A program made the translations under genes and the position numbers. This document shows, in pieces, positions 13,420-57,990 of a DNA stretch of 64,000 nt (position 1 is the stretch's first letter; each line of letters opens with the position of its first letter). Location of the stretch: assembly GCF_003841505.1 (NCBI RefSeq), contig NZ_REGA01000002.1:248001-312000 (forward strand), given 5' to 3'. The stretch is from Natrarchaeobius chitinivorans. Lineage in GTDB: Archaea > Halobacteriota > Halobacteria > Halobacteriales > Natrialbaceae. A model generated the notes under the pieces. It made no database searches. It was not told the origin of the DNA and was given only the letters and a program-made list of their open reading frames with translations.

Positions 13420-16251
13420 TCAATCCCAGAACGACTGCGTCCGCGCGTACTCGCGTTCTTTCGAGAGGATATCCCGGTAGAACGCCGATTCGTCTTCCCG
13501 GTGTCTGTTGATGATCTGGGCCGCGTTGTGCGGGCCGACACCTCGAGCGGCCATCGCGACGACGGCTTGCTTGCCGTGGCTCTGGACGAGACTCGCGTTC
13601 CGAAACGCGCGTTCGGTCATCTCGTCCTGTTGCTCGTCTTTCTCCTCGGCGCGAACCGCCGTGACGACCTCGTCGGCCCACGGGTTCAACGCCGCGATAC
13701 GAGTCGACTCGCACTCGGGACACTCGGGTTGCTCCTGGACTCGTTTCACTTTCGTTTTCGCTTTCCACTCCCTGCAGTGAGTACAGAGCAGGATGATGCG
13801 ATCGTTCTGAATCCGTTCCCGGACCGTTCTGATGACGCTCGCGTCGGCGTTTTCCGGAGCAAGAAGCTCCTTGCCCGACGAGCGCCCACCCTGTCCGATC
13901 GCCGTGCGGCCGCGATACGTAACCACCTCGAGATTCCCAGACTGGATCCCATCGAGGATCGAACTCGCACGCTCGACGTCCAGATCCTCGTGAAACACCT
14001 CGCGAATCGATTCTTCGTACATGGGCGTGTCCTCGAGCGCCGCCAGCAGCCGGTCGTTCGAGAGTCGTCCCGACCCCTGCCAGCGCTTGAGCGCACCGAA
14101 CTTCGCCGACACCTGCGAGAGACGGAACGCGAGCGCGTCGGATCGTTTGAGCCCGAGTTCGACGATGGCTTCGACGTGGTCCGGATCGGTCTCCTCGAGC
14201 ACCTCGAGGACGTCGCTCGTCGCGATCGAATTCGGCACTTCGAGTTCGATCCGGTAGGGATCCGTCTCGAGGCCGACGGAGGAGCCGGCCCGCTGTCCCA
14301 GTAGCGCGGAGAGGATTCGACCGAGCGTCTCGTTGGCCATGTGCCCGAAGCAGGCGTTGAGGACGACGGAACGACCCTGGCGCTCGAGGACGAGCCGGTC
14401 GGCCGTCGGCATCGGCGCGTCGGCCTCGAGCTGGCGCTCGAGTTGCGAGCAGGCGTCGGCAAGCGTCCGCTCGTCGCCCGGATAACGGGTAGTGAGTTCT
14501 CGTCCAACTGCGTCGGCGTCGCCGCCGACCTCGAGTTGCGAAGCTGCGACGTCGCGAATCTCGCCGACTTCCCCGGCGACGGCCGCCGGGACGGGGATCT
14601 CCTGTCCGATCCACGACGGCACTTCGCCCGCTGGGTCTTCGATCGGACTCACTTTCACCCTGGCTTCGTCGTCGTCGATCTCCGCGATCCGCCACATCTC
14701 GCCGCGCTGGACGAACACCTCGCCGGGTCGTGCGAAGTTGACGACGAACCGCTCGTCCAGGGTTCCGATCTGCGTACTCGAGGCGATGTCGTGGACCTCG
14801 TAGGTCTCTTCGTCGGGGATCATCGAGAGGTTCGAGTAGACGTACTGCCACGTGCTGCCGCTGGTCTCGATGCGGTCTTCGCCCTCGTCGAACCAGACGA
14901 TCCGGTTTCGGTGGAGTTCCGACAGGACGTTTCGAAACCGCTCCTCGGAGAGGTCGCGAAACGGGTACGCTCGGCTGATCGTCTCGTACACGTCGCTTAC
15001 GTGCTTCGATCCGCGACTCTGGACGATCCCTGGAATCTGGTTTGCGACCACGTCCAGACTCCCCTCGTGGATCGCGGCTGGTTCCACCTCGCCCGCGCGG
15101 GCCCGGCGAGCGATCGCGAGCGCCTCGAACGTGTCGTCGGGGTTAGTCGTGACGATCGTTCCGCTCGAGACCTCGTCCCGGCGGTGGCCGGCGCGGCCGA
15201 TGCGCTGGAGCAGTCGGGTCACCTGCCGTGGGCTCTTGTACTGGATCACGTGATCGACCCGACCGACGTCGATGCCGAGTTCCATCGAGGACGTACAGAG
15301 CAGTCCGTCCAGGTCACCCGATTTGAACCGGTCTTCCACGTCGATGCGGGCCTCCTTCGAGAGCGATCCGTGGTGGACGCCGATCGGAAGGTCGAGTTCG
15401 GTAAATCGCGAGCCGAGCGCCTCGGCGGTCTGGCGCGTGTTGACGAAGATGAGCGTCGATTCGTGGTCCTCGACGAGGTCACGAATCAGACGGACGTGAC
15501 TCGCCGTGTCGGGTTCGGTCATCAACGTGCCGGCGAGGGTTTCGTCTTCGTCGGTAACCGCGGGCCGCCGAACGCTCACGTCGACGTTGCTCCCGACGTC
15601 GATCTCGCGGATCTCACACAGTCGGCCGCCGGTGAGGAACTTCCCGACTTCCGCCGGCTCGCCGACGGTCGCGGAGAGGCCGATCCGCTGGAACTCCCCA
15701 GCGAGATCGCGGAGGCGCTCGAGGCCGATCGAAAGCTGTGCGCCCCGTTTCGACGCCGCGAGTTCGTGGACCTCGTCGACGACGACGTGGGAAACGTCCT
15801 CGAGTCCGCTTCGCAGTCGGTCGCCCGTGAGCATCGCCTGGAGCGTCTCCGGCGTGGTGATCAGGACGTCCGGGGGATCTTCGGCCTGCTTGCCGCGTTC
15901 GTACTGGGTCGTATCGCCGTGGCGGACGGCGACCTCGAGGTCGAGGTACTCGCCCCACCACTCGAGGCGCTCGAGCATGTCGCGGTTGAGCGCTCGAAGC
16001 GGGGTAACGTAGAGTGCGCCGAACCCCTCGGCCGGACCGTCGTCGGCGACGAGGTGGTCGAAGACGGGAAGCATGGCCGTCTCGGTCTTGCCGCTCCCGG
16101 TCGGCGCGATCACGAGCGTATTCTGGCGGGCCGCAAGCGGCGGGATCGCCAGCCGTTGTGGAGCCGTCGGCGTCGAGAACCCGCGTTCGGAGAGCGCCTC
16201 GCGAACCGCCGACCCGAGGCGAGTAAACGCCGCCACGTCCCCTTCGGTCAT
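13420..16251 (-). CDS. lhr: Lhr-family superfamily-2 DNA helicase
   Basis: 943 aa, as expected for Lhr-core proteins. The N-terminal RecA domain has Walker A APTGSGKTETA, DEVH in VVVDEVHELAASKRG, and the motif III-like GLSATVGEP. The second RecA domain includes IFVNTRQTAEALG, STSMELGIDVGRVD and QRIGRAGHRRDE. The winged-helix and Lhr-specific C-terminal regions follow, with a late Cys cluster (LLCTHCREW, PECPECEST) that looks like a zinc ribbon. It unwinds branched DNA and RNA-DNA hybrids in repair and replication. It is read toward the small receiver gene. Confidence 0.93.
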   Translation of the reverse strand: MTEGDVAAFTRLGSAVREALSERGFSTPTAPQRLAIPPLAARQNTLVIAPTGSGKTETAMLPVFDHLVADDGPAEGFGALYVTPLRALNRDMLERLEWWGEYLDLEVAVRHGDTTQYERGKQAEDPPDVLITTPETLQAMLTGDRLRSGLEDVSHVVVDEVHELAASKRGAQLSIGLERLRDLAGEFQRIGLSATVGEPAEVGKFLTGGRLCEIREIDVGSNVDVSVRRPAVTDEDETLAGTLMTEPDTASHVRLIRDLVEDHESTLIFVNTRQTAEALGSRFTELDLPIGVHHGSLSKEARIDVEDRFKSGDLDGLLCTSSMELGIDVGRVDHVIQYKSPRQVTRLLQRIGRAGHRRDEVSSGTIVTTNPDDTFEALAIARRARAGEVEPAAIHEGSLDVVANQIPGIVQSRGSKHVSDVYETISRAYPFRDLSEERFRNVLSELHRNRIVWFDEGEDRIETSGSTWQYVYSNLSMIPDEETYEVHDIASSTQIGTLDERFVVNFARPGEVFVQRGEMWRIAEIDDDEARVKVSPIEDPAGEVPSWIGQEIPVPAAVAGEVGEIRDVAASQLEVGGDADAVGRELTTRYPGDERTLADACSQLERQLEADAPMPTADRLVLERQGRSVVLNACFGHMANETLGRILSALLGQRAGSSVGLETDPYRIELEVPNSIATSDVLEVLEETDPDHVEAIVELGLKRSDALAFRLSQVSAKFGALKRWQGSGRLSNDRLLAALEDTPMYEESIREVFHEDLDVERASSILDGIQSGNLEVVTYRGRTAIGQGGRSSGKELLAPENADASVIRTVRERIQNDRIILLCTHCREWKAKTKVKRVQEQPECPECESTRIAALNPWADEVVTAVRAEEKDEQQDEMTERAFRNASLVQSHGKQAVVAMAARGVGPHNAAQIINRHREDESAFYRDILSKEREYARTQSFWD

Positions 16252-19768: not shown

Positions 19769-22243
19769 TCAGGAGATCGACGCCGGGGGACGGCGCTCGT
19801 CGACAGGTTCGCCCTCCGCCCGCCGTTTTTCGGCCGCTTGCTCCGGATCTTCGAGCAGTGCGTCGATCACGTCGGTCGCCGCTGGCGAGTAAAGCGGTCT
19901 GTTGTCGTTCCCACAGCGGGCATCCATCAGACACGCCGGACACCCCTCATCGCGTCCACACGAGCAGTCGGTCATCAGCGCTCGAGCCCGACGTGCCAGC
20001 GCTTCGAACTCCTCGTAGATGCGCCGCGAGAATCCGAGGCCGCCGTCGACGCCGTCGTAGACGAACCACCCGCTTCGATCCGGTCGGTCGGGCAGTCGGT
20101 TCGTCGCCAACCCGCCGAGGTCCGCCGGATCGACCGTGAGTTCGAGCGGGGAAACGGCGATCATCGCGTGTTCGATCGCGTGGATCCCGCCGAGGTAGCC
20201 GTGCAGCCGTGGAGGAAGCTCCGTACAGTCGTCGTTGACGTACTCGCTGTGAGCGTTCGTCACCGCGCGTTCGACGGCCGGTGGAACTTCGGCCCAGCAC
20301 AGTTGCGTTCGCATCTCGAGGGGCGGGACGCCGGTTTCGAGCCCCGCCTCGAGCGTTTCGCCGGTGTCGACGGCCCGTTTCGTGTAGCTGTCGTATCGAA
20401 CCGTCACGGTTCCGTATCCCCAGTTGAGCCGGAAGGAACCGACCCGTCTCGAGTCGCGTACCTCGGTGTCGTATATCGAAACCCTGCGCTGGGACTGGGT
20501 GTAGTAATCGACGTCTGCGGCCTCGAGTTCGACGTACGGCTGCGGTCGGTCCTCCCGAAAGTCACACACCTCGTACCGATCGCCTCGGTGCAAGACCGTC
20601 GCACCCTCGTGATAGTCGCGATACGCTCGGGCGCGTCCGATCGGTTCGTGATCGATTCGTTCCTCGCCGGCCAGCCGAACGTCGAAGGTGTCCCTTCCTT
20701 CGGCGTAGATGCTGACCTCGTTTTGCGGACGATCGCGGTGTGTGTATGTGACCCCACCCGAGAGTCCGCCCTCGAGGTCGCCAATCCGCCGCCCGTACTC
20801 GACGGCCCGTTCGAGTCGGTTCGTCCCGCCGAACTGCTCGGCATCGTCTCGAGTCAGCGGCAGTTCCTGGGCGGCACAGACGACGTGTTGCAGGTAGACC
20901 GGATTGTTCTCGAGGTCGACCACCGCGCGTTCGGGGTCGCCCTCGAGGACGTACTCCGGATGGCGGAGCACGTACTGGTCGAGCGTCGCGTGGCGGGGGA
21001 CGAACGCCGAGATGGTTTCTCGCTCGCCGCGCCCGGATCGCCCGAGTCGCTGCCAGAACGACGCCCTGCTCCCGGGATACCCCTGAAGGACGGTCCCGTC
21101 GATGCGGCCGACGTCGATCCCGACCTCGAGGGCGCTGGTCGTGGCGACGCCGTCGAGCGTTCCGGCCTCGAGTCGACGCTCGGTCTCCCGACGGGAACGC
21201 TTTCCGTGGCCGGCGTTGTACGACGCGAGCGACGTCTCTCCGCTTTCGGCGGGCGAGTACCGATCGAGGAACTCGGTCGCACGATCGATCGCGAGCTCGG
21301 TTCCCTTTCGCGAGTCACAGAACAGCAGGGACGGAACGCCTCGAGAACAGAGGTGAGCCCAGAGTTCGGGTGCCTCGACGGTCGCGGGTCGGCCACTCGA
21401 GGCCCAGCCGTCCCCATCACGTTCGTCACCGACGGCACTTCCGCCCGGCCGGCCGTCGTCCGACGGAGGATCCCAGAACAGGAGATGGCGGCGTCCCCGC
21501 GGCGATCCGTCGTCGTCGATCACCGTCACCGACTCGCCGGCCAGGGTTCGAGCGTGCTCGCCCGGATTGCCGATAGTCGCGCTCGTCAGGACGAACCGGG
21601 GGTCGCCGCCGTACCAGTCGATCACCCGCCTGGCTCGCCGGAGGATCCACGCCGCGTGCATACCGGCGATTCCCGTCCACGAGTGGGCCTCGTCGACGAC
21701 GACGAGCGAACAATCGGCGTGAAACTCGGCCCAGCGGTGGTGGCCCTCGAGGTACTGGTTCAACCCGGCGACGTTCGTGATGACGACGTTGGCGTCCTCG
21801 CGAATCCGTGACTTCTCCTCGGCGTCGGTATCGCCGTCGTAGACGCCGACGGAGACGTCGAGGCCGAGCGTTCGGAACAGCTCGTTCAGTTCTCCCTCCT
21901 GATCCCGGCTGAGCGCCTTCGTCGGGTAGACGAGCAGTGCCCGCACCGACGGATCCTCGAGGTATCGGCGTGCGATCTCGAGGCCGTAGACGTAGCTCTT
22001 GCCCGACGACGTCGAGGTCGAAACGCAGACGTTCTCGCCGGCCTCGAGCGCGCGGAGCGCCTCGGCCTGGTGGCTCCAGAGGTCGACGCCGAGTGCCGAC
22101 GCCAGTTCCGCGGGCAGGACGTCTCCCGCCGGAACGTGACGTGCCGACCGAGCGGGGAGCGTGATCCGTTCGCGGACCTGTTCGCTGTACCGATCGGCCG
22201 GATACGAGTCGACGAGTTCGGCTCCGGTGAGTGCGAGATTCAT
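19769..22243 (-). CDS. MrfA/YprA-like DEAH helicase with C-terminal zinc-binding domain
   Basis: 824 aa from the ATG at 22243 (MNLALTGAELVDSYPADRYS); the longer frame upstream is low-complexity read-through. Motifs in order: Walker A STSTSSGKSYVYG, a YPTKALSRDQ segment, DEAH in VVVDEAHSWTG, LTSATIGNP, CDSRKGTELA, TTSALEVGIDVGRIDG and GRSGRGE. The end contains the four-Cys cluster DCSCGRDEGCPACLMDARCG of the MrfA-binding (DUF1998-type) domain. In Bacillus, MrfA unwinds DNA in mitomycin-lesion repair. The upstream gene on the same strand is a matching exonuclease, so the two probably form one operon. Confidence 0.9.
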   Translation of the reverse strand: MNLALTGAELVDSYPADRYSEQVRERITLPARSARHVPAGDVLPAELASALGVDLWSHQAEALRALEAGENVCVSTSTSSGKSYVYGLEIARRYLEDPSVRALLVYPTKALSRDQEGELNELFRTLGLDVSVGVYDGDTDAEEKSRIREDANVVITNVAGLNQYLEGHHRWAEFHADCSLVVVDEAHSWTGIAGMHAAWILRRARRVIDWYGGDPRFVLTSATIGNPGEHARTLAGESVTVIDDDGSPRGRRHLLFWDPPSDDGRPGGSAVGDERDGDGWASSGRPATVEAPELWAHLCSRGVPSLLFCDSRKGTELAIDRATEFLDRYSPAESGETSLASYNAGHGKRSRRETERRLEAGTLDGVATTSALEVGIDVGRIDGTVLQGYPGSRASFWQRLGRSGRGERETISAFVPRHATLDQYVLRHPEYVLEGDPERAVVDLENNPVYLQHVVCAAQELPLTRDDAEQFGGTNRLERAVEYGRRIGDLEGGLSGGVTYTHRDRPQNEVSIYAEGRDTFDVRLAGEERIDHEPIGRARAYRDYHEGATVLHRGDRYEVCDFREDRPQPYVELEAADVDYYTQSQRRVSIYDTEVRDSRRVGSFRLNWGYGTVTVRYDSYTKRAVDTGETLEAGLETGVPPLEMRTQLCWAEVPPAVERAVTNAHSEYVNDDCTELPPRLHGYLGGIHAIEHAMIAVSPLELTVDPADLGGLATNRLPDRPDRSGWFVYDGVDGGLGFSRRIYEEFEALARRARALMTDCSCGRDEGCPACLMDARCGNDNRPLYSPAATDVIDALLEDPEQAAEKRRAEGEPVDERRPPASIS

Positions 22244-22299
22244 CGAGTACGAATCCGTTCCACCGTCGGGGACGGTCCGGTCGCGAGTTCGTCTCCCGG

Positions 22300-23928
22300 T
22301 CACGGCTCGAAGTCCCCGAGTCCCGTCTGGGCGGTCGAGTCGGCTGTTCGATTCGATGTCCCGCCGGCCGTCCGCTCGGCGTCGCCGGTCGCCCGTCCGA
22401 TCCCGTCGGTTCCGGCCGTCGGCTTTGCGTTCGCGATCGCGTCGTACACTGCGGCCAGTTCGCGAACGTCCGCCTCGCAGTACTTCCGAGCGTTCTCCCA
22501 GTCGATCTCCCGGTCGGTTGCACAACCCGATCCGCCGTGTGGCTCGGTCGGTTCGGTCCCGTCGGGTCCCTCGAGGCGTCGGCGAATCCGCTTTGCGAGC
22601 GTTCGGCCGTCGATCGCATCGACACCGATATCCCGCGTGTACCCGAGCGCGGCCGCAACCTCCTCGAGTCGATTCGTCCGCCCGGGCAAGACCGCGTGAT
22701 CCCGCCGAATCGCCCAGTCGTACGGGTCGTTCGTCGATACGCGCTCGGCCCAGAACTCGCGGTACTCCGGTGCGTAGCGGGCGACGAATCGCTCGAGGTG
22801 GACGAAGTCGAAACCGTAGCCGTTCCAGGCGACGAGTTCGGGGTCGTCGTACTCAGCGGCTAGCCACTCGAGAAACGCCCGCGTCGCGGTGCCCGGATTC
22901 GATCGCGAGAGCTCGGTGTCGACGAAGTCGACGTACCTGTCGCGGGCGGGATCGTAGACCCCGATCAGCCAGACGATCGTCGGCTGCAGTCCGTCGGTTT
23001 CGATGTCGACGAACAGCGGGTTGCCGTCGACCGGTGGCACCGATTCGTCAGTCCGGCGGACGACGCACGATTCCTCGATCGCGCGGGCGCTCCGTCGGAT
23101 TCGACGGGCCGTCGACTCGCCGATCCCGTCGATCGAACGCAGGTCGGCGATCGGAGCCTCGGCGACGTGCATCCTCGAGTCGTACCCGCGGTCCCGAAGG
23201 CGGTCGGCCGTCTCCGGTCCGACGCCAGCGAGCGCACCGAGACCGATGCGGTCGCCGGGAACGGACGAAACGGCGATCGATCCGGCCCCGTCGCAGGTGA
23301 GGCGGGCGAGTTCGGCCGCTCCCGAACGGCGGATCGGACCCAGTCCCCGGACCGGAAGCCGAATCGGTACGCCGTCGACGACGTCGCGCCAGACGTAGTC
23401 GTAACTCGCCGGCAACGATCCGGTACAGAACACCGTTTCCCCCCGTGAACGAGCCTGGTACCGGGCGATCGCCTCCCGACCGTCGAGCGTGGCCTCGAGA
23501 GTGACGCGGTCGGTCACCGGCTCGAGGTCGTCACAGACGAGGTAGTCGACGTCCGTCGGAAACGGTTCGGTATCGTCCCCGGTGTCGGTCGAAACCGCGC
23601 TCCTCTTACGGCCGCCGTCGTCGATGCCGTCGGCCGACGGTTTTGGCTCGCCGATCGCGTCCTCGAGGAGTTCGATCGCGTCGACGAAGGCGAACGTGAC
23701 TCCCGAGACGCTCACCGTGTGACACGTCGCGGGGCCGTCAGGGTCGACGACGGGACCGTCGAACGCTCGCCGCAAGCGACTGGTGACTCGGACGTCGGCA
23801 CCGTCGCGGACGACGTAGACGAGATCGGGATCGGCGTACTCGAGGAGGTCCTCGAGCGCCCGTTCAGTGGTGGAGTCGAGCGCGTCACAGCCCAGGGCGA
23901 GCAGATTCGCGCCGCGGGCGTCGGTCAT
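22300..23928 (-). CDS. MrfB/YprB-like DEDD exonuclease with helix-hairpin-helix domain
   Basis: 542 aa from the ATG at 23928 (MTDARGANLLALGCDALDST). The N-terminal half is haloarchaea-specific. Around residues 235-295 tandem HhH motifs occur (GALAGVGPETADRLRDRGY; RSIDGIGESTARRIRRSAR). The RNase H-fold exonuclease follows, with the acidic residues in FVDIETDG, AWNGYGFDFVHLERF and KYCEADVRELAAVYD. These match YprB/MrfB, a 3'-5' exonuclease working with MrfA in Bacillus. The gene lies 56 bp upstream of the helicase on the same strand. The C-terminus is a Thr/Gly-rich tail. Confidence 0.85.
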   Translation of the reverse strand: MTDARGANLLALGCDALDSTTERALEDLLEYADPDLVYVVRDGADVRVTSRLRRAFDGPVVDPDGPATCHTVSVSGVTFAFVDAIELLEDAIGEPKPSADGIDDGGRKRSAVSTDTGDDTEPFPTDVDYLVCDDLEPVTDRVTLEATLDGREAIARYQARSRGETVFCTGSLPASYDYVWRDVVDGVPIRLPVRGLGPIRRSGAAELARLTCDGAGSIAVSSVPGDRIGLGALAGVGPETADRLRDRGYDSRMHVAEAPIADLRSIDGIGESTARRIRRSARAIEESCVVRRTDESVPPVDGNPLFVDIETDGLQPTIVWLIGVYDPARDRYVDFVDTELSRSNPGTATRAFLEWLAAEYDDPELVAWNGYGFDFVHLERFVARYAPEYREFWAERVSTNDPYDWAIRRDHAVLPGRTNRLEEVAAALGYTRDIGVDAIDGRTLAKRIRRRLEGPDGTEPTEPHGGSGCATDREIDWENARKYCEADVRELAAVYDAIANAKPTAGTDGIGRATGDAERTAGGTSNRTADSTAQTGLGDFEP

Positions 23929-54809: not shown

Positions 54810-54973
54810 GTTCCAAACCCTCCCGCGTCGGCGCGTGTGACACGCCGTCCTGCACCGGAGACGCCGAGACGATCACCCCGGAAGGGTACGTCTGCGAGAC
54901 TTGCGCCGCCGAGATCGCCGTCCACTACGAGCAGGCGCGCGAGCGAGATTCGGAAGCTCGAGGTGAACGATGA
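54806..54973 (+). CDS. 55-aa zinc-ribbon protein directly ahead of the integrase
   Basis: ATG at 54806 with GAGGTGG just upstream. The Cys pattern ACDTPSCTG and VCETCAAE (two pairs) forms one zinc site; a helix with Arg, Glu and Asp follows. The stop overlaps the integrase ATG by four bases (ATGA). Position and motif suggest an excisionase or regulator working with the integrase, but this is inference. Confidence 0.68.
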   Translation: MSSKPSRVGACDTPSCTGDAETITPEGYVCETCAAEIAVHYEQARERDSEARGER

Positions 54974-56010
54974 GCGACCTGCAGCCGATTCCACCGTCCG
55001 AAGCGATCGAATTGTATCTCGACTCCATGCAGGACGACTCAGCCGAGTGGACACAAACCTCTCACAAGAGCCACTTGCGGGCGTTCCGGGAGTGGTGTCG
55101 GGAACACGGCGGAATCGACAACATGAACGACCTGAACGGCCGGGACCTCTACCAGTTCCGTGTCTGGCGTCGCGAGGGCGGCTACAGTAAGGGACAGAAC
55201 GCGACGATCGCCCCGAAAACCCTCGATTCGGCGTTGACCACGGTTCGGGCGTTCCTCCGGTTCTGTGCTCAAATCGAAGCCGTTCCCGAGGATCTGTACG
55301 AGAAGGCCCCGCTCGTTTCGCTTTCGCCCAGCGAGGAAGTGAGCGACAGCAAAATGGACCCTTCACGCGTTGGTCCGATTCTCGAGTATCTCGACCGGTA
55401 CGAGTACGCGAGTCGAAGTCACGTGATCTTCCTGCTACTGTGGCATACGGGTGCCCGAATCGGTGGAATCCGTGCTCTTGATCTGCAGGATTGCGACCTC
55501 GATGGGCGGAAACCCGGTGTCGACTACGTACACCGGCCGGAGTCGGGTACTCCACTGAAGAACGACGAGAAGGGAGAGCGGTTCAATCGCGTCAGTGAGC
55601 GCGTCGCTCAGGCGCTTCAAGATTACATCGAAGGTCCGAGACAGTCTATCACGGAGGACAGCGGCCGGCAGCCACTCGTCACTACTCGGTTCGGACGTGC
55701 ATCACCGACCTGTATTCGAGATACACTCTACAAGTGGAGCCGCCCCTGTGCCATCGGAATCGACTGTCCCCACGACGAAGACCCTGCGACCTGCGAAGCG
55801 GCGACCCACGATGCCGCGAGTAAGTGCCCGTCATCCCGATCGCCTCACGACGTGAGGAAGGCTCGCGTCACGAAGTACAGAAACGACGGCGTTCACCGGG
55901 GAATCGTCTCCGATCGCCTCGATGCGTCCGAGCAGGTTCTCGATAAGCACTACGACCGCGCATCAAAGCGTGAAAAGGCTGACCGGCGATGGAGGCAGAT
56001 TCAAGGATGA
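54970..56010 (+). CDS. int: Tyrosine recombinase (provirus integrase)
   Basis: 346 aa. An N-terminal SAM-like core-binding domain (SAEWTQTSHKSHLRAFREWC, WRREGGYSKGQNATI) precedes the catalytic domain: Arg in LLWHTGARIGGIRALDLQD (about residue 160), the HxxR of SRSPHDVRKARVTKYR (~292), the second His position (Arg-Leu-Asp-Ala-Ser region) and the nucleophile Tyr in LDKHYDR (~327). It recombines the 16-bp cores at tRNA-Arg and 56059, and lies 48 bp before the right core, as typical for site-specific integration. Confidence 0.92.
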   Translation: MSDLQPIPPSEAIELYLDSMQDDSAEWTQTSHKSHLRAFREWCREHGGIDNMNDLNGRDLYQFRVWRREGGYSKGQNATIAPKTLDSALTTVRAFLRFCAQIEAVPEDLYEKAPLVSLSPSEEVSDSKMDPSRVGPILEYLDRYEYASRSHVIFLLLWHTGARIGGIRALDLQDCDLDGRKPGVDYVHRPESGTPLKNDEKGERFNRVSERVAQALQDYIEGPRQSITEDSGRQPLVTTRFGRASPTCIRDTLYKWSRPCAIGIDCPHDEDPATCEAATHDAASKCPSSRSPHDVRKARVTKYRNDGVHRGIVSDRLDASEQVLDKHYDRASKREKADRRWRQIQG

Positions 56011-56058
56011 CGGGAGCCGTTGATACCCCGAAAGTGGCAGCAGGCGTGGGGGTGAAGG

Positions 56059-56074
56059 CCTGCAGCGCCCATCC
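56059..56074 (+). other. attR: second 16-bp attachment core
   Basis: CCTGCAGCGCCCATCC, identical to the core inside tRNA-Arg. Flanks differ (AAGG before, TTCT after), so the tRNA is not duplicated beyond the core. Confidence 0.9.
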
Positions 56075-56529
56075 TTCTTTCACGTGGGTAGAATCCAAGC
56101 GACAGCGCCGGGGTGTTTATACCAAACCGTCGCGGGACCACCAAGAGTTCACGCGTTTTTCACTCGATTGAAACGGGCACGATCGCATCTGGATCAGCCA
56201 CAAGTTGTGTTATTTATCCATCACACTGTTACTGAGTTGGCTGGGAATAGCCATGGAAACCCCTCGAGAGATCCGTACTGTCCGTCATTCCCGGCGCACC
56301 CGCGACCAGGTCGGCGGGGCGACGGGATATATAAAACCCAGACAGAGAGGCAGTCCCCCACGATGTAGCTTCCGTGGGAACTCCAGTCGATATCCCGATC
56401 AATTACTGTGGAATGCAGGAGAGAGGTACTAAAAATACTTCTAAACGAGAAATTATGGGATATACCACTCACCACATATCTGACCTATTCTGTCAAACAA
56501 CACCATCTATCATGCCAGAACCCACGTGA
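56075..56529. other. Region right of attR with PE-B remnant
   Basis: About 450 bp without a supported gene. The PE-B fragment at 56275-56330 is listed separately. The rest shows AT-rich stretches near 56430-56520, probably the promoter of the HalOD1 gene. Confidence 0.45.
56275..56330. repeat. Truncated PE-B element
   Basis: TACTGTCCGTCATTCCCGGC then GCACCCGCGACC corresponds to the left half of PE-B copies at 16976 and 58307; the TACGG terminus and the right half are missing or altered (GGGGCGACGGGATAT). Confidence 0.6.
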
Positions 56530-56552
56530 TTTGGTAAGGCTTTTATACCAAA
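56530..56552. promoter_or_regulatory. Promoter and inverted repeat of the HalOD1 gene
   Basis: TTTGGTA and TACCAAA (56530-56536, 56546-56552) flank a TATA box (TTTTATA, 56541-56547). About 26 bp downstream is the ATG at 56571, so the transcript is likely leaderless. A repressor binding there would cover the TATA box. Confidence 0.55.
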
Positions 56553-56570
56553 CTGATGCATATCGAGTCG

Positions 56571-56876
56571 ATGTCAAAGAGTAGCACGCAGATCAAGAAA
56601 CCTGACTTTGCAACTAACACGACAGTTCTCAACGAGGCTGAATGGCGACGCGACGACGAGAACACGCCGGTGTATGCCGTTGTTACGGCTGTTGCAGAGG
56701 TCGAAGATTCTGCTGTCGGCGACTTGCCGCCACTCTACGACGCTATCGACCCGGAAGCATTGAACAAGCTATTTACATCCCGTTGTGAGCCAACTGTCGA
56801 TCTGGTCGAATTCGAGTACGCCGGCTACTCCATTGCAGTTCGCGGAAGTGGTGACGTAGCGGTCCATCCAGCGTAG
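56571..56876 (+). CDS. HalOD1 output-domain protein
   Basis: 101 aa from the ATG at 56571 (MSKSSTQIKKPDFATNTTVL). The C-terminal ~75 residues contain PLYDAIDPEALNKLFTSRCE and LVEFEYAGYSIAVRGSGDVA, the signature of HalOD1, a haloarchaea-specific domain found mostly as an output module. It is not preceded by a receiver or sensor, so it acts as a single-domain protein or with a partner. The leaderless promoter fits the start. Short and acidic. Confidence 0.8.
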   Translation: MSKSSTQIKKPDFATNTTVLNEAEWRRDDENTPVYAVVTAVAEVEDSAVGDLPPLYDAIDPEALNKLFTSRCEPTVDLVEFEYAGYSIAVRGSGDVAVHPA

Positions 56877-56925
56877 TAGGTGCGCTGAGATGCTTCGTTT
56901 TTAGAACCGTAGTCACGTCTATAGC

Positions 56926-57225
56926 AGCAGAAACGGACGAACAGGGAGGCTGTACATCTCCAAAGACGTACGAGAAAAATACGGCGAGAAGTACCACATC
57001 GTCACGTACGAGGATAGAATCGAACTCGCTTCGGTTGCGGACGACCCCTCGCTGCAGTACGGGCCAGCAGGCGAGTTACGTGATGTGTCCATCGTCGGTA
57101 TTCGTGCGGACATCGAAGCAGAAGGGAAAGCTGCGGCCCGCGAGAAAGGGATGGTGAATGGCGTCGCAATATCTCCGTCACGTGTTACCGACTCCTGCGC
57201 TGCTCAACTTTGTTCAGGTCTATGA
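56926..57225 (+). pseudogene. AbrB/SpoVT-type antitoxin remnant (frameshifted, start lost)
   Basis: From 56947 the frame reads LYISKDVREKYGEKYHIVTY and continues EDRIELASVADDPS..., ending REKGMVNGVAISPS and a TGA at 57225, the usual swapped-hairpin AbrB domain and tail of haloarchaeal antitoxins. The expected N-terminus (ETDEQG) lies in a different frame just before it, showing a one-base change near 56946, and there is no start codon. No toxin gene follows. A decayed antitoxin left without its partner. Confidence 0.7.
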
Positions 57226-57321
57226 CTCACGTTACCACGTTTCGTATCTGTTATCGCTTTTTGCTACGTTGGTCACTGTGCCCAAGCGATTTTGCTTCGC
57301 GCTAGTGCTTTTAAGTGTACA

Positions 57322-57340
57322 TGTAGTACTGTGTACTACA
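57322..57340. promoter_or_regulatory. VapBC operator and promoter
   Basis: TGTAGTAC and GTACTACA flank three bases (57322-57329, 57333-57340), directly before the ATG of vapB. A TATA-like CTTTTAAG (57308-57315) is about 26 nt before the start, so the transcript is leaderless. VapB autoregulation of such palindromes is known for the family. Confidence 0.6.
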
Positions 57341-57601
57341 ATGGCGACGAAAACGATTTCACTCGACGAAGAAGCCTACGAGCGGCTGAAGGCTCGGAAG
57401 AAAGAGGGGGAAAGCTTCAGCGAAACCGTCAAACGTCTCGCAGGAGAACGGTCGTGGAACGAAGTCGCAGGTATCCTTTCTGAAGGAGAGGCCAGAGACC
57501 TCGAAAGCGCTATCGAGGAGGGGCGCACTCGCTCCAAAGGACGGAGTAACCGCCTCACAGCGGAGCTAGACGAAGCTGTTGGCAACGAGAAGCCGGAATG
57601 A
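57341..57601 (+). CDS. vapB: VapB-like antitoxin
   Basis: 86 aa from the ATG at 57341 (MATKTISLDEEAYERLKARK). A ribbon-helix-helix N-terminus (ISLDEEAYERLKARKKEGES, FSETVKRLAGERSW) should bind DNA as a dimer; the C-terminal helix (ILSEGEARDLESAIEEGRTR) would sit in the toxin. The gene overlaps vapC by four bases (ATGA). The upstream palindrome is a likely autoregulatory site. A longer in-frame start at 57158 is not supported by the promoter. Confidence 0.85.
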   Translation: MATKTISLDEEAYERLKARKKEGESFSETVKRLAGERSWNEVAGILSEGEARDLESAIEEGRTRSKGRSNRLTAELDEAVGNEKPE

Positions 57602-57990
57602 TTCAGGATACATCGTTCATCATCGACCTGTTACGTGGAGATGAAAACGCGAAACGACTTCTCGACATCGTTGAAAAGGAATCACGACCACAGAAGGTAT
57701 CCTCTGTAACGGTGCTCGAACTCTACGAAGGTGTCGTCCGTTCACACGTACCAGAAACAAAACGAGAGCGTATCCTCGACGTGCTGGAAACGAAGCACGT
57801 TGTCAGTGCCGACCAGCCCGTAATGCGTAAAGCCGGAAAACTCTCCGGTGAACTAATAATCGGTGGCGAACGGATCGAACGGGAGGATTGTATTATCGCG
57901 GCCACTGCCCTTCTGACCGACGAGCCAATCGTCACGAGAAACACGAACCATTTCAACCGTATCGCCGATCTCGAAGTACGGTCGTACTAG
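57598..57990 (+). CDS. vapC: VapC-like PIN-domain toxin
   Basis: 130 aa, normal for VapC. The PIN-domain acidic residues appear as QDTSFIIDLLRG (Asp4), TVLELYEGVVRS (Glu), EREDCIIAATAL (Asp ~97), and TRNTNHFNRI. It cleaves RNA, usually tRNA or rRNA, when free of VapB. All catalytic residues look intact, so unlike the neighbouring MazEF-like pair, this one should be functional. Four-base overlap with vapB. Confidence 0.9.
   Translation: MIQDTSFIIDLLRGDENAKRLLDIVEKESRPQKVSSVTVLELYEGVVRSHVPETKRERILDVLETKHVVSADQPVMRKAGKLSGELIIGGERIEREDCIIAATALLTDEPIVTRNTNHFNRIADLEVRSY

Follow-up and report, generated by a model that had tools for sequence, protein, structure and literature searches.

Two adjacent minus-strand genes lie at the centre of this analysis of the window (i.e., the whole 64,000-nucleotide stretch of Natrarchaeobius chitinivorans DNA). 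The 5' partner is a nuclease gene of 542 aa (22300..23928; ATG at 23928, stop at 22300), and downstream of it lies the gene of a MrfA/YprA-family DEAH helicase of 824 aa (19769..22243; ATG at 22243, stop at 19769), for which an alternative GTG start at 22303 would give 844 aa, its GTGA overlapping the nuclease stop. A preliminary description of the locus had named two adjoining genes on one strand, for a DEDD exonuclease and for a DEAH helicase whose C-terminal part carries a Cys cluster, and both genes are found as it placed them. Motif II of the helicase reads DEAH, and its Cys cluster, located in an MZB zinc-binding domain (19928..20176, minus strand; PF09369, 3e-18), aligns with that of MrfA. 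The Pfam domains detected (DEAD, Helicase_C, WHD_HRQ1 and MZB, the last annotated as ‘MrfA Zn-binding’) correspond to the features of the YprA/MrfA family, namely DEAD/DEAH RecA domains, a winged helix and a C-terminal MZB (DUF1998) zinc domain. This domain set agrees with the best PDB match, MrfA/YprA itself (6znp, 1.5e-103), and the earlier placement of the helicase in this family therefore holds.

In the nuclease, Pfam recognises HHH_5 and RNase_H_2. The former marks a tandem helix-hairpin-helix (HhH) module resembling the RadA/Rad51 N-terminus (about residues 229-287; 23068..23244, minus strand; HHH_5 1.1e-9; PDB 1pzn Rad51, 3.7e-6), which, as had been proposed, follows an N-terminal domain and precedes the exonuclease. 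The exonuclease itself (residues 301-504; 22417..23028, minus strand; RNase_H_2 1.5e-16) is of the DEDDy 3'-5' type and matches 5mdn in fold (Z 15.6, rmsd 3.3, 170 aligned), the fold being that of the proofreading domains of family-B polymerases; MrfB was not among the 50 fold matches listed for the nuclease model. Its catalytic residues D308, E310, D374, Y483 and D487 are invariant in all 57 rows of our family alignment (A2, window included).

N-terminal fold and C-terminal motif

Two features of the nuclease had been overlooked in the preliminary description and are new here. One is the N-terminal domain (residues 1-226; 23251..23928, minus strand), which is predicted to adopt a calcineurin-like metallophosphoesterase fold. 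We folded this domain alone (AF2 model, pLDDT 89.2), as the aligned rows for the whole model were filled by exonuclease matches. The fold assignment rests on VIA-align scores (Rv0805 Z 10.3, rmsd 4.2, 186 aligned; GpdQ 10.1; SbcD 9.0; Mre11 8.6) and on matches of the whole nuclease model to LpxH (5.3e-4) and YmdB; a Foldseek search with the domain alone returned nothing under 1e-3. The ten best VIA-align rows (Z 9.0-10.3) are phosphoesterases. In the 57 rows no column reached 60% His, as a conserved metal ligand would require, and the ligand columns of L221, a haloarchaeal phosphoesterase-exonuclease fusion, are not kept in the window domain, with the caveat that the alignment of this part is uncertain (hhalign aligns the two only from residue 204 on). 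The small subunits of polymerases delta and zeta, to which the domain shows weak matches (E 0.05-0.12), carry an inactive phosphoesterase fold. The metal site of the modelled domain thus appears to be lost, and its most likely role is that of a scaffold that binds protein or DNA.

The other feature is a PIP-box peptide, QTGLGDF, in the predicted disordered C-terminal tail (residues 534-540; 22309..22329, minus strand; pLDDT <50 for residues 516-542). It conforms to the pattern of PCNA clients, i.e., Q-x-x-h-x-x-aromatic at a flexible terminus (cf. the definition QXXhXXaa given in PMC4929162), and its key columns are conserved throughout (Q in 57/57 rows, L or I in 57/57, F or W in 57/57). The motif was present in 79 of 80 named loci, whereas of the 356 other ORFs that were called across 21 stretches, 4 had one. 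The second aromatic of the textbook PIP box is missing, as it also is from the genome's own Fen1 (QTGLDRW) and NreA (QSSLDAF), which end in the same form of the motif. We infer from this sequence pattern that the nuclease may be tethered to PCNA via the PIP box.

Pairing and spread among haloarchaea

Across 145 haloarchaeal genomes, the helicase gene was found downstream of the nuclease gene, on the same strand and within 1.5 kb, in 61 of the 62 nuclease places kept. The gap between the two genes was at most 430 bases in 60 of those 62 places (largest 426 bases), while the remaining one of the 61 (G136) has a 559-aa ORF between nuclease and helicase. Among the named loci, the helicase lay at most 0.7 kb downstream of the nuclease in 79 of 80. 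These counts rule out chance adjacency. Moreover, the distance matrices of the two proteins were strongly correlated (r=0.968 across 55 loci, against at most 0.098 on permutation), a value which still includes the shared descent of their hosts. The complete module occurred in 56 of the 145 genomes; a more distant, unpaired family helicase was the only member in 72, and 17 had neither (split read by eye, helicases counted at E <1e-60). In none of 18 regions around unpaired helicases did we find a nuclease partner within about 6 kb. Because the module is so patchily distributed, it must be dispensable.

The pair is also found on plasmids. There were 36 plasmid records with the nuclease, including PHS3 of Halobacterium salinarum R1 (OE_RS12870/OE_RS12865), and some plasmid copies adjoin PLD-like and JAB/ThiF-like genes. 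By contrast, 7 of 20 other loci share three of the genes that flank the window pair (clusters 2, 3 and 4), which suggests that the window copy is stably chromosomal. In three loci, genes that by eye resemble Mre11/SbcD and SbcC come after the pair. Phage records gave no nuclease match at E 1e-5, and viral contigs gave at least two weak matches, confined to the exonuclease part, among the matches listed.

A patchy, horizontally moving distribution with many plasmid copies is what one might expect of an anti-plasmid or antiviral defence module, the more so as the plasmid lineage adjoins a second YprA-like helicase gene besides the PLD-like and JAB/ThiF-like ones, and as the YprA family includes the helicases of DISARM, Dpd and Druantia (PMC12458937). 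We nevertheless regard a defence role as unlikely. Against PADLOC models the nuclease had no match at E 0.01 and the helicase matched defence helicases only partially, so that this search of the two proteins recovered no recognised DISARM, Dpd or Druantia component; in addition, the window copy has the stable chromosomal setting described above, and a PIP box would suit a host replication factor.

Relationship to MrfA and MrfB

The preliminary description had regarded the two genes as counterparts of YprA and YprB, and one reading is that they are genuine archaeal orthologues of MrfA and MrfB, repairing mitomycin-type lesions as the Bacillus pair does. The Pfam families are identical, MrfA is the closest solved structure to the helicase, and the nuclease has a PF13482 DEDD exonuclease domain beside a YprA-family helicase, as expected of MrfB. 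The order of nuclease then helicase also recurs in MrfB-like/MrfA-like loci of other archaea, where an MrfA-like helicase lay directly downstream in 9 of the 12 examined. However, at catalytic position 483 the window family has Tyr in 57/57 rows, where Bacillus MrfB and 12 MrfB-like rows from archaea have His (DEDDy instead of DEDDh). In an exonuclease tree (29 hand-picked rows, unrooted, with a long MrfB branch), one clade (98/98) united Bacillus MrfB with the DEDDh exonucleases found in other archaea of the phylum, and a different one (99/97) contained the window family, so that the nuclease was rejected as an MrfB orthologue. The helicase was likewise rejected as the MrfA orthologue, as its clade was split at 100/100 from the clan holding Bacillus MrfA and MrfB-associated helicases (33 hand-picked rows, unrooted, with a long MrfA branch). 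In addition, the bit scores of MrfA were higher against unpaired haloarchaeal helicases (18 proteins, median 418 bits) than against paired ones (25 proteins, medians 338 and 360). No TPR domain matched in the window nuclease at E up to 1; as none was found in six scanned archaeal MrfB-like proteins either, the C-terminal TPR may be a bacterial-type feature only. Taken together, we consider orthology with MrfA-MrfB to be quite improbable.

Fusion of the HhH module had been proposed as an archaeal twist, which it probably is not, since weak HhH signals ahead of the exonuclease were also seen in 5 of the 6 MrfB-like proteins scanned (E 0.017-0.087, under the Pfam cut-off). We also considered whether a short paralogue, L001, might be the MrfB instead, as it has the higher PF13482 score (146.9 versus 62.6 bits), but dropped it because a PDB search with E values up to 1 gave no match to MrfB.

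Proposed function and known systems

Our preferred reading, to which we give somewhat better than even odds, is that the pair forms a two-gene haloarchaeal DNA-repair module, a PCNA-tethered helicase/3'-5' exonuclease of a lineage separate from MrfAB. We favour it because of the near-perfect pairing and the correlated divergence of the two proteins, the MrfA top match, the exonuclease fold and its intact catalytic residues, the PIP box, whose form recurs in this genome's Fen1 and in its copy of the mitomycin repair factor NreA, and the negative phage and PADLOC searches of the nuclease. We count against it the patchy spread, the plasmid copies near PLD-like and JAB/ThiF-like genes (which could point to defence) and the missing second PIP aromatic. 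In such a module, the YprA-family motor would open the duplex where there is a lesion or a stalled end. The exonuclease, whose C-terminal PIP box would hold it on the PCNA sliding clamp while the HhH module positions it on the duplex, would then digest the exposed 3' end, leaving a gap for a polymerase on the same clamp to refill. The N-terminal phosphoesterase fold, its metal site lost, would act as a scaffold for protein or DNA binding. The mode of action would resemble that of MrfAB, i.e., a helicase and a 3'-5' exonuclease working beside UvrABC on bulky adducts. The analysis establishes the gene pair, its domains, the conserved motifs and the trees, whereas PCNA binding, strand polarity, lesion type and helicase-nuclease contact are what we infer for this scheme; crosslink repair by the pair, though plausible, would be a guess.

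Alternatively, the pair may act not on chemical lesions but on replication forks or intermediates of recombination, for instance in 3'-end trimming or in restart. The PIP box, the RadA-like HhH and the proofreading-type exonuclease fold would all fit, as would the Mre11/SbcD- and SbcC-like genes named by eye in three loci; since the module is not universal, however, it is not a core fork factor, and we consider this alternative possible without thinking it probable.

If the pair is indeed a clamp-tethered repair module, archaea would have their own, clamp-coupled counterpart to a bacterial repair pathway that was discovered recently, the pairing of helicase and exonuclease would be present in two deep lineages, and one more nuclease would join the non-core archaeal PCNA clients. 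A bolder conjecture, to which we lend little credence, is that haloarchaea, without any debt to MrfAB, put together a repair machine on the clamp from components typical of a replicative polymerase, though with no polymerase among them. Its DEDDy exonuclease would be of the proofreading type, its dead phosphoesterase fold would resemble the one in polymerase B-subunits, and a PIP box and a dedicated YprA-family helicase would complete it; acting in trans on PCNA, it would edit or resect 3' ends that are blocked. Judged by titles and the start of abstracts, searches on MrfA/MrfB/YprA/YprB and haloarchaeal PCNA-exonuclease topics returned no paper on the haloarchaeal pair, although these helicases may be listed in the supplementary data to PMC12458937.

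Among known systems, the Bacillus subtilis system MrfA-MrfB (YprA-YprB) likewise pairs a YprA-family helicase carrying MZB with a DEDD exonuclease. Bacillus MrfB is a DEDDh enzyme with a C-terminal TPR (PMC11194089), whereas the window nuclease is DEDDy, has an N-terminal phosphoesterase fold and a PIP box, and belongs to another clade. In other archaea of the phylum, the MrfB-like/MrfA-like pairs (L209-L213, L216-L218 and L220; hosts probably methanogens, at a guess) share the placement of the nuclease directly upstream of the helicase, and L216 matches the solved MrfB at 1.8e-21. They differ in being DEDDh, in giving no phosphoesterase match (six scanned), in having no PIP box at the C-terminal ends inspected and in the clades of both genes. 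Collinear with the window nuclease is the haloarchaeal phosphoesterase-exonuclease fusion (L221, L222), in which a phosphoesterase and an HhH-like region likewise precede a DEDDy exonuclease (HhH plus exonuclease aligned by hhalign at 99.6%, E 7.4e-24), but its Metallophos domain is recognisable by Pfam, it is without a PIP box and no YprA-family helicase was found in the 12.5-kb stretches examined. NreA, the PCNA-dependent mitomycin repair factor of Haloferax, is also a haloarchaeal protein with a C-terminal PIP box but belongs to another protein family (Nre_C); as described in PMC4929162, it has no known biochemical activity and works with UvrABC, its PIP motif being required for mitomycin C repair. 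Finally, the proofreading domains of family-B DNA polymerases share the DEDDy exonuclease fold, which the window nuclease carries without a polymerase domain.

Pairing and distribution of the nuclease and helicase genes

The window carries, on the minus strand, a 542-aa nuclease gene (23928-22300; domains HHH_5 and RNase_H_2) and directly downstream an 824-aa helicase gene (22243-19769; DEAD, Helicase_C, WHD_HRQ1 and MZB), confirming the preliminary description of a helicase and an exonuclease as same-strand neighbours. An alternative helicase start (GTG at 22303, giving 844 aa) overlaps the nuclease stop. Bacillus MrfA is the closest solved relative of the helicase (E 1.5e-103). The C-terminus of the window helicase (19769-19795) is a conserved tail, RRPPASIS (RRPPLFYS/A in another subgroup); such a tail ends 54 of 80 partner helicases and may be a short motif for interactions. 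Another large helicase of SF2 type (Lhr-like by eye) is encoded 3.5 kb from the pair, at 13420-16251 on the minus strand.

Nuclease and helicase form one unit. When 145 haloarchaeal genomes were searched with each protein, 61 of the 62 nuclease places kept had the helicase within 1.5 kb downstream on the same strand, with a gap of at most 426 bases at 60 of them; in one genome (G136) a 559-aa ORF lies between the two. The sole exception (G039) encodes a different protein, a phosphoesterase-exonuclease fusion. The pair was present in 56 of the 145 genomes, while 72 had only an unpaired helicase of the family, more distantly related (by eye from both search tables, E <1e-60), and 17 had neither (by eye, helicase E <1e-60). 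A scan of named genomes with nuclease alignment A1 detected 110 relatives. The record titles of the best 80 were all haloarchaeal; distant relatives could escape patterns derived from haloarchaeal sequences. The helicase lay directly downstream at 79 of these best 80 loci, and at L122 it lay 869 bases beyond the nuclease. Nuclease and helicase distances were correlated (r=0.968, 55 loci).

Architecture of the nuclease

In the AlphaFold model of the nuclease (mean pLDDT 86.8), residues 301-504 fold like the proofreading domains of family-B polymerases (5mdn, Z 15.6, rmsd 3.3, 170 residues), and D308, E310, D374, Y483 and D487 are invariant in all 57 rows of alignment A2, window included. The HhH module is similar to the RadA/Rad51 N-terminus. 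The N-terminal domain, modelled alone (pLDDT 89.2), matches a calcineurin-like phosphoesterase fold (Rv0805, Z 10.3, rmsd 4.2, 186 residues; GpdQ, Z 10.1; SbcD, 9.0; Mre11, 8.6), and no column reaches 60% His across the 57 rows. Foldseek gave no match below 1e-3 for this domain alone; the whole model matched LpxH at 5.3e-4.

A rare haloarchaeal fusion (L221/L222) has, ahead of the HhH-exonuclease unit that it shares with the window nuclease (hhalign 99.6%, E 7.4e-24 over window residues 204-499), a phosphoesterase domain that Pfam recognises (5.5e-9 and 3.3e-9) and whose motifs look intact by eye. This arrangement supports decay of the window N-domain from an originally intact phosphoesterase, although in that comparison the two N-domains gave no sequence alignment. 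Close relatives or fragments of the fusion occur in about a dozen of 292 genomes, and the stretches read contained no helicase partner for it.

The C-terminus of the nuclease, which follows a variable linker, is Q-x-x-L-x-D/E-F/W; in A2, Q, L or I, and F or W each occur in 57/57 rows. PMC4929162 defines the PCNA-binding PIP motif as QXXhXXaa and reports that in Haloferax NreA requires this motif to repair mitomycin C damage with UvrABC. A Q..h..aromatic end was found at 79 of the best 80 named loci (the miss, L109, has a broken frame) and in 4 of the 356 other ORFs called near these loci, three of them one family. In the same genome the C-terminus of Fen1 reads VTQTGLDRWT, and QSSLDAF lies near the end of NreA. 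We infer that the window nuclease binds PCNA.

Genomic setting and possible role

The pair is mobile: the nuclease occurs on 36 plasmid records, all from haloarchaeal genera, and Haloferax larsenii, of the Haloferacaceae, and Natronolimnohabitans innermongolicus, of the Natrialbaceae, have nucleases that are 98% identical. Within the genus of the window, one genome (G119) is without the pair and another (G401) has a related nuclease. Three neighbours of the window pair recur at 7 of 20 other loci, indicating a conserved chromosomal setting for this copy. Integrase-like and PIN-toxin-like ORFs (by eye) at 54970-57990 (plus strand), within a lower-GC stretch, are perhaps an integrated element.

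Elsewhere, the genes of a pair overlap by 4 bases on Halobacterium salinarum R1 plasmid PHS3 (L168:7704-12304), where a 214-aa RNase_H_2 protein follows; at L071, L074 and L075, Mre11/SbcD-like (~440 aa) and SbcC/SMC-like (~1157 aa) genes, named by eye, come after the pair.

Most likely, the helicase would open DNA where a lesion or stalled end occurs, and the exonuclease, tethered to PCNA, would trim the 3' end for refilling. It is possible that the pair serves defence, mainly in the plasmid lineage, which sits behind PLD-like, JAB/ThiF-like and second YprA-like helicase genes (plasmids of Haloprofundus and Haloarcula, L167 and L170; gene order helicase-nuclease-helicase).

Relation to MrfAB

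An exonuclease profile matched 84 of 294 genomes of the phylum. Of 16 hand-picked regions, 14 were non-haloarchaeal, in genomes that we guess to be methanogens; 12 of these held a DEDDh exonuclease, nine directly upstream of an MrfA-like helicase. One such DEDDh locus (L216) matched solved MrfB at 1.8e-21, whereas the haloarchaeal nuclease profiles reached only 0.26 and 0.029. Of 6 archaeal MrfB-like proteins scanned, 5 showed weak HhH signals, which suggests that the HhH module is not the haloarchaeal twist. PMC12458937 assigns MrfB-associated YprA helicases to a repair branch; the words HhH and Mre11 do not appear in its main text as available, and searches of an open-access library gave no description of the haloarchaeal pair.

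In the unrooted exonuclease tree MrfB groups with archaeal DEDDh proteins (98/98), and the DEDDy clade that contains the window family (99/97) also includes L221/L222 and two more unpaired proteins. The unrooted helicase tree separates the paired haloarchaeal clade (100/100) from a clan of MrfA with actinobacterial, other archaeal and unpaired haloarchaeal helicases. Because both trees are unrooted, they allow either independent assembly or a very deep split. MrfB is described in PMC11194089 as a DEDDh exonuclease with a C-terminal TPR, whereas the window nuclease is DEDDy. The window pair thus resembles Bacillus MrfAB in its parts and gene order, yet by these trees it is a separate lineage.
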